Source: Alistipes sp.
Lineage (GTDB): Bacteria > Bacteroidota > Bacteroidia > Bacteroidales > Rikenellaceae
DNA: 36,716 nt
Direction: 5' to 3'
Assembly (NCBI GenBank): GCA_017465055.1
Contig: JAFTWZ010000034.1
Coordinates: 1 to 36,716 of the forward strand
The notes under the pieces were generated by a model, which saw only the letters and a program-made list of their open reading frames with translations, was not told where the DNA came from and ran no database searches. Numbering within the stretch: the stretch's first letter is position 1; each line of letters begins with the position of its first letter. A program made the translations under genes and the position numbers. Below are positions 10,880 to 36,716 of the stretch, piece after piece.

Positions 10880-10973
10880 ATATATAGATTTAGTCTATTT
10901 AGCCGTTCTGAGGAGATGCGGCTCAGTCGTAAATTCCGGTGGGAATCGAAAAAATCATACAAAAATAGCAGCT

Positions 10974-11265
10974 AAACGAAGTATAAATATCGTCACCCCG
11001 AGGAGGAGCAAGTATGAGTGTGCGGAGAGTGATAACGCCACTATGCTCCGACGTGGGGGTCTTCCGCTGTTTATAGGGCTGTGCGGAGTGTGATTGATTG
11101 TCCTGTGTGCCGTGCGAATTGTGATTACAACTCTTACGTATCAGTGCGGAAGTATAAACAAATGAAGATCGCCACAGAATTGCATAGACCCAAATGGGTA
11201 TCACTACCGCTCGTAGATGCAATTCTTCGCGATGACGTACTATGTTATTAATTACTCCACCAGAA
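10974..11265 (+). repeat. Dispersed structured repeat, copy 1 (about 292 bp)
   Basis: This segment is nearly identical to 36390-36713. It holds: an outer pair CGTCA/TGACG; ACCCC and GGAGC at the left that can pair with GCTCC and GGGGT around 11045-11060; two 31-bp tandem units (11081-11111, 11112-11142); and a right stem in which ATCGC plus AGAATTGCAT (11168-11185) pairs with ATGCAATTCT plus GCGAT (11217-11233). Neither strand looks coding: the copies differ by a 31-bp unit, which would shift any frame. No transposase or target duplication was seen. It may be a structured RNA or a non-autonomous mobile element. It lies downstream of tRNA-Arg. Confidence 0.85.
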
Positions 11266-11301
11266 TTATCGCCTGATCCGGAGATGCTGAAGAGTGGCTA
11301 T

Positions 11302-11341: not shown

Positions 11342-11416
11342 TGGTAGCTCCTCCGGGACTCGAACCCGGATTTAAGGTTTAGGAAACCTTCGTTCTATCC
11401 CTTGAACTAAAGAGCC
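11342..11416 (-). tRNA. tRNA-Arg (anticodon CCU)
   Basis: On the minus strand the cloverleaf is complete. The acceptor GGCTCTT pairs with AGGAGCT (two G-U pairs), the D stem is GTTC/GAAC, the anticodon stem AAGGT/ACCTT holds loop TTCCTAA, and the T arm is CCGGG-TTCGAGT-CCCGG. Anticodon CCU reads AGG. The discriminator is A and the CCA end is encoded (11344-11342). It has its own promoter and terminator. Confidence 0.95.
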
Positions 11417-36249: not shown

Positions 36250-36326
36250 GGTGCGTTAGTTCAGCTGGTTAGAATACGTGCCTGTCACGCACGGGGTCAG
36301 GGGTTCGAGTCCCCTACGCACCGCCA
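36250..36326 (+). tRNA. tRNA-Asp (anticodon GUC)
   Basis: The acceptor GGTGCGT pairs with ACGCACC; the anticodon stem CGTGC/GCACG holds loop CTGTCAC with anticodon GUC. The T arm is AGGGG-TTCGAGT-CCCCT-like and the discriminator is G. The CCA end is encoded (36324-36326). It has its own promoter and a terminator directly after. Confidence 0.97.
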
Positions 36327-36368: not shown

Positions 36369-36392
36369 TTATTGGTCAAAATAGTAGATAAA
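36369..36392 (+). repeat. Third copy of the 24-bp motif, inverted
   Basis: TTATTGGTCAAAATAGTAGA followed by TAAA is the exact reverse complement of the copy at 115-138. It abuts the start of dispersed repeat copy 2; a decayed form may precede copy 1 (10965-10976). Confidence 0.7.
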
Positions 36393-36713
36393 CGAAATAT
36401 AAATATCGTCACCCCGAGGAGGAGCAAGTATGAGTGTGCGGAGAGTGATAACGCAACTATGCTCCGACGTGGGGGTCTTCCGCTGTTTATAGGGCCGTGC
36501 GGAGTGAGATTGATAGTCGTGTGTGCCGCGCGGAGTGTGATTGATAGTCGTATGTATCGTGCGCAGTGTGATTGCTACTCTTACGTATCAGTGCGGAAGT
36601 ATAAACAAAGGAAGATCGCCACAGAATTGCATAGACCCAAGTAGGTATCACCACTGCTCGTAGATGCAATTCTTCGCGATGACGTATTAATATTATTTAT
36701 TACTCCACAAGAA
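36390..36713 (+). repeat. Dispersed structured repeat, copy 2 (about 324 bp)
   Basis: It matches 10974-11265 along its whole length with scattered substitutions. The main difference is a third 31-bp unit (36497-36527, 36528-36558, 36559-36589). The right stem AGAATTGCAT (36623-36632) / ATGCAATTCT (36664-36673) is unchanged, while its loop has drifted. It lies downstream of tRNA-Asp and its terminator, in the same orientation as that tRNA. The window ends at its edge. Short frames on either strand here are not credible genes. Confidence 0.88.
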
Positions 36714-36716
36714 GTA

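Follow-up and report, generated by a model that had tools for sequence, protein, structure and literature searches.

Two long intergenic sequences in the window (the whole stretch of 36,716 nucleotides that was analysed) resemble each other and lie beside tRNA genes, which raises the question of what kind of repeat they are and how such a repeat would spread. A preliminary description, made from the letters alone, had offered a small-RNA family and a non-autonomous mobile element among its options. The pair that it reported proved real, since both copies are present on the + strand and are 84% identical over the search query. The limits that it gave for copy 1 (10974-11265) turned out to be too short; terminal inverted repeats (TIRs) and a target site duplication (TSD) place the element at 10920-11279, a length of 360 bp from TIR to TIR. 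The parts of both copies, together with the adjacent tRNA genes, are as follows.

10912..10919, no strand: left TSD of copy 1, GGAGATGC
10920..11279, + strand: copy 1, the whole probable MITE, delimited by alignment of the own-genome copies, the TIR pattern and the TSD
10920..10987, + strand: left arm of copy 1, with the TIR and a match to the transposase-3' end of an ISL3-family IS
10991..11237, + strand: core of copy 1, head-to-head CGTC-tagged REP-like palindromes with a spacer (model R1, 196.6 bits; this core is among the 16 sequences from which R1 was built)
10991..11065, + strand: left palindrome of copy 1, CGTC at its left end
11164..11237, - strand: right palindrome of copy 1, CGTC at its right end, holding the stem of the preliminary description
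11238..11279, + strand: right arm of copy 1, including the right TIR
11280..11287, no strand: right TSD of copy 1, GGAGATGC
11342..11416, - strand: tRNA-Arg (CCT), 3' end towards copy 1
36250..36326, + strand: tRNA-Asp (GTC), 3' end towards copy 2
36378..36406, + strand: remnant of the left arm of copy 2, outer TIR unrecognisable
36407..36684, + strand: core of copy 2 (model R1, 194.9 bits)
36494..36595, + strand: 31-bp minisatellite within the core of copy 2 (Tandem Repeats Finder)
36685..36716, + strand: right arm of copy 2, ended by the contig end

The duplication that bounds copy 1 on both sides is a perfect 8-bp match, and the TIRs of this copy are imperfect and ∼26 bp long. Copies of the repeat begin on the left with GGCTCAGTCGTAAATTCCGGTGGGGA or one of its variants and finish on the right with an imperfect inverted version. 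Copy 2 is eroded at its left end and is stopped on the right by the end of the contig at 36716. The stem formed by ATCGC/GCGAT and AGAATTGCAT/ATGCAATTCT is unchanged between the two copies and the loop differs, as had been claimed. The length difference of 31 bp was likewise borne out, and it corresponds to one unit of an internal tandem repeat. Because the copies differ by 31-bp steps, the element contains no coding gene; none of its ORFs is for a transposase, and the longest has about 100 aa. Copy 1 is preceded by rpmA (ribosomal L27). Both copies were correctly described as lying downstream of tRNA genes, on the 3' side of tRNA-Arg and tRNA-Asp, respectively, and the orientation of copy 1 relative to its tRNA is opposite to that of copy 2.

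The copy number was determined in the genome of origin, an Alistipes-like MAG (2.13 Mb, 49 contigs, 84% complete). A sequence search returned 57 matching pieces, and not just the two copies of the window. Given this number and the fold z-scores (-3.8 for copy 2 and -2.7 for copy 1 on either strand), the repeat is not a product of chance. Around the matches 55 pieces were located, 46 of them matching the query over 150 nt or more and nine over less. The core motifs sort the own-genome pieces into 41 arrays, one of which comes from locus L103. Several arrays lie at contig ends, where the element probably breaks the assembly, and their true number may therefore exceed 41; at 13 of the 41 the gene caller left one side without a gene. 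Copy 1 had no match in phage and plasmid collections.

Some arrays are composed of two cores joined through a linker of ∼53 nt. Tandem cores were seen in loci L068, L076, L081 and L082, with one conserved linker of this length in several of them, which suggests duplication of whole units. In L103 (about 2315-2790) one element, with a different minisatellite (GAGAGACGAGAGGGAC-like), is seemingly inserted in the core of another; the elements therefore nest.

Two TIRs were recognised by pattern in 24 of the 33 arrays that have both core ends. A TSD matching at 7 of 8 positions or better flanks 10 of these 24 copies, compared with 2 of 552 mismatched flank pairs, made by combining the left flank of one element with the right flank of another (Fisher 1.2e-13). 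A target duplication of 8 bp is that of the ISL3 family. For the 14 copies without a TSD of 7/8 or better, decay, nesting or arm exchange may be the reason. Several variants of both the left and the right arm occur in the genome.

Matches to the ISL3 transposase (PF01610) were present in 6 of the 101 genomes of the genus. In one congener, G098, two loci contain a whole IS of 1420 and 1419 bp, respectively, bounded at either end by the same TIR, and the second ORF of one of them matches PF01610 at 7.4e-50. The end of the IS downstream of the transposase is 84-90% identical to left arms of the repeat over up to 68 nt; for the left arm of copy 1 the identity to IS positions 1-68 is 84%. The right arms and several left arms differ from the IS arm. 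The assembly of origin (84% complete) contains no match to the ISL3 transposase, and IS matches in it never extend past the arm; this assembly being incomplete, an active source is thus not seen in it.

In locus L101 the ISL3 transposase is split across two ORFs (951-1343 and 1372-2316) near a T/A run. The same arrangement occurs in L096, that is, in both copies examined, and could be due to programmed frameshifting or to decay. The flanks of the IS in L096 (about 1430-1444 and 2865-2880) are more like inverted than direct repeats, as would result from insertion of the IS into the centre of a palindrome downstream of the tRNA gene.

The TIRs, the 8-bp TSDs and the arm common with an ISL3-family IS support the earlier option of a non-autonomous mobile element. 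It is very probable that the repeat is an ISL3-type MITE that is moved in trans and carries a REP-like palindrome dimer. We infer that the element has moved, and an ISL3-family DDE transposase would have acted in trans on its TIRs (GGMTCAGTC...), leaving the 8-bp duplications. The cargo, a head-to-head CGTC-tagged REP-like dimer, would have been present in the genus earlier as a chromosomal repeat, would have ended up between the IS ends and would then have been copied along with them, reaching about 40 places. The parent IS would insert mainly 75-190 bp beyond tRNA 3' ends and the MITE with a weaker bias; the zone behind the terminators is perhaps accessible or recognised, and tolerant of insertion.

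The core of copy 1 consists of two opposed palindromes with the CGTC tags outside. The left one reads CGTC-ACCCC-GAGGAG...GACGTG-GGGGT-CTTCC and the right one, on the other strand, CGTC-ATCGC-GAAGAATTGCAT...ATGCAATTCTGTG-GCGAT-CTTC. Each comprises a 5-bp stem, an internal loop, a second stem and a large loop. The motif CTWCC pairs between the two palindromes, and a predicted third stem, CTWCC/GGWAG, together with the CGTC/GACG ends, could close a larger structure. The first stem pair is A-U in 76 of 78 cases; the second is U-A in 61 of 77, but the own copies have C-G there in their left palindrome. Single cores are mostly 216, 247 or 278 bp long, an array of 609 bp with two cores implies a length of 309, and there are a few departures (246, 277 and 503). 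The 31-bp minisatellite of copy 2 is situated between the palindromes.

Changes on both sides were found in 8 of 36 consensus pairs among 16 aligned cores. In an alignment of 81 distinct best-strand matches, which was fitted to the covariance model, compensatory change is evident; one pair, for example, is C-G in 32, U-A in 29 and G-C in 11. The fold z-scores (-2.7 to -3.8) and the 36-pair consensus structure are what a structured non-coding RNA gene family, incidentally mobile, might display. However, selection on an RNA should lead to a preference for G-U pairs on its own strand, and the mispairs in 2382 cells comprised 37 G-U and 41 A-C, with no strand preference; moreover, both strands fold alike. 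Since G-U is as rare as A-C, the complementarity seems to be of the DNA-palindrome kind and would act as DNA, not as RNA. In the window, Rfam at gathering score recognised two tRNAs only, copy 1 giving one sub-threshold match, and no Rfam family corresponds to the repeat. The small-RNA family of the preliminary description was thus left without support, and we regard an RNA gene family as extremely unlikely.

The distribution of the core in relatives was analysed with a covariance model of the core; the counts of matches are lower bounds. Matches were obtained in at least 29 of the 101 congeneric genomes and in at least 3 of 295 genomes in a sample of the order, the own genome being included in both figures. 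In two distant members of the order the dimers (CGTCATTGCGA.../...TCGCAATGACG) follow the same plan. The 74 core matches outside the own genome, among which L036 and L188 are one element, carry no TIR in 50 cases, one in 17 and both in 7, by a loose pattern that makes the 'one TIR' scores and some of the 'both' scores (e.g., L173) chance. A TSD accompanies three of the seven cores with both TIRs (8/8 in L034, 7/8 in L118 and 6/8 in L119) and none of the other four. With 50 of 74 cores devoid of TIRs, core and ends are separable, and the bare core is the common state outside the own genome. One congener, G064, contains at least 22 matches to bare CGTC dimers (loci L164-L174) without ISL3 ends, and the spread of these dimers is not explained by such ends.

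The insertion of copy 1 was compared with the corresponding region of relatives. The nearest named relatives of the neighbouring AMP-binding protein (83-91% identity in the nearest group) come from Alistipes sp./Rikenellaceae MAGs of ruminant caecum, colon and rectum. No element was found behind rpmA in another genome among the matches listed. In the relatives examined, the sequence behind rpmA did not align to the insertion point, and no base-exact empty site was obtained. The two anchors, rpmA and the tRNA gene, occur together in 1 of 80 loci (L204), where they are separated by 138 bp without an element, compared with about 520 bp in the window.

Inverted pairs of REP-like palindromes spread through a genome, as seen here, are characteristic of REPINs and BIMEs with RAYT transposases. 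The repeat could accordingly be REPIN/BIME-like, moved through single-stranded hairpins by a REP-associated tyrosine (Y1) transposase, with the TIRs being incidental. The core is indeed an inverted pair of tagged palindromes, and the TIR-less cores common in relatives, including those of G064, spread in a way that ISL3 ends do not explain. However, a Y1 transposase was detected in one of 101 congeneric genomes and not in the own assembly (84% complete), and its sole locus (L094) has no such palindrome alongside and two weak tag-like matches. In contrast to REPINs, the repeat has the terminal sequences and target duplications of a DDE transposon; Y1 transposition is not expected to leave 8-bp TSDs next to TIRs. 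A Y1/RAYT transposase is therefore unsupported as the carrier, and this explanation appears very unlikely. Y1 subclasses with atypical flanking structures have been described in Bacteroidetes, and the available text of that study links none of them to CGTC repeats (PMC6006769).

The position behind tRNA genes was examined for the ISL3-type MITE, for the parent IS and for bare cores. The own assembly has 33 tRNA genes. A tRNA gene is the immediate neighbour, at any distance, of 7 of the 41 own arrays, whose neighbours were called with a crude gene caller; eight tRNAs are involved, and all eight turn their 3' side to the element (sign test 0.008). For the IS, 21 of 24 places outside the own genome that match an IS end were taken, some of these copies being truncated; L315 was excluded as a MITE arm, one place as the other end of an IS already counted, and one as a fragment of 46 nt. 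A tRNA gene lies 74-185 bp past the visible end in 14 of the 21, each time with its 3' side towards the IS, and no tRNA is present in the retrieved stretch at the other seven. PF01609, intended as a second IS family for a tRNA control, gave no match in 7 genomes, and bare cores were therefore used; of 50 such cores, one lies within 400 bp of a tRNA 3' end. The differences between IS and bare cores (Fisher 6e-9), own arrays and bare cores (0.02), and IS and own arrays (2e-4) were obtained under unequal distance criteria: own arrays were scored by their immediate neighbour and bare cores over 400 bp, and 185 bp is the largest distance seen for the IS.

The tRNA link is real and belongs mainly to the IS. 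The tRNA-downstream preference that had been suggested for the repeat thus holds strongly for the IS (14/21) and more weakly for the repeat itself (7/41 arrays). The IS itself apparently favours sites on the 3' side of tRNA genes, which as safe harbours are more familiar from integrases. The copies might instead belong to a MITE that persists because its palindromes serve the host, for instance by terminating transcription in both directions, or as sites for gyrase, downstream of tRNA and protein genes. The compensatory changes would suit such a use, as would the gene arrangement around the 28 arrays for which a neighbour was called on each side (convergent in 12, tandem in 11 and divergent in 5), but insertion where it is harmless would leave an equal bias, and the copy behind rpmA recurs in none of the genomes among the matches listed. 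We consider a role of this kind very unlikely to account for the repeat.

The core is most similar to the CGTC-tagged REPs of Di Nocera et al. (2013; PMC3733652), as described in the available text of that paper. Both have CGTC at one end of the palindrome, are intergenic and occur in many copies; the REPs form predominantly head-to-head (HH) heterodimers with the tags outside, an arrangement also found here. The stem of the REPs starts with A and T residues that pair; that of the present element starts with A-T, followed by T-A in most relatives but not in the left palindrome here. However, the REPs have an uninterrupted stem of 8-9 bp, a loop of 4-5 nt and a CCA tail, whereas here the stem is interrupted, the terminal parts are large and the tail is CTWCC. 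As stem, loop and tail differ in this way, we term the core REP-like and place it outside the four families of that paper. According to the same text, these REPs are not associated with a transposase and have no dedicated one, whereas ISL3 TIRs and TSDs enclose the core here.

There are precedents both for a minisatellite and for a GTAG REP within a MITE, namely BrickBuilt and QMITE2, respectively, according to the text available for each. BrickBuilt of Porphyromonas gingivalis (PMC4596501) is, like our element, an intergenic Bacteroidales MITE with an internal minisatellite, IS-like TIRs and predicted stem-loops. It differs in its 23-nt repeats, IS5-family-like TIRs and irregular TSDs, and the available text mentions neither a REP dimer nor ISL3. 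QMITE2 (PMC5896051) has TIRs, direct repeats of 7-11 nt, a REP inside and small TIR-less copies resembling bare REPs; its REP is of the GTAG instead of the CGTC type, and it belongs to a different phylum. Neither a CGTC dimer between ISL3 ends nor an ISL3 element behind tRNA genes was found in the literature covered, which mostly excludes subscription journals. Searches on ISL3 with MITEs or REPs, MITEs or ISs behind tRNA genes, CGTC REPs and Alistipes MITEs returned nothing on the element, and a text search with the palindrome string gave only unrelated papers.

The available text of the study defining CGTC-tagged repeats (PMC3733652) does not settle how they spread. An ISL3 element could plausibly carry CGTC palindromes, and a CGTC dimer between DDE IS ends with TSDs offers a bench-testable vehicle for their spread. 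It is conceivable, if rather doubtful, that ISL3-type transposases are a general vehicle of this kind: dimers would be captured repeatedly between the ends and amplified, decay of the ends would give rise to bare dimers, and the targeting of the parent IS past tRNA terminators would seed the palindromes there. A further short palindrome, GCGGGTATTAAAAATAATACCCGC and variants of it, recurs next to cores of some relatives, in loci L050, L035 and L038.
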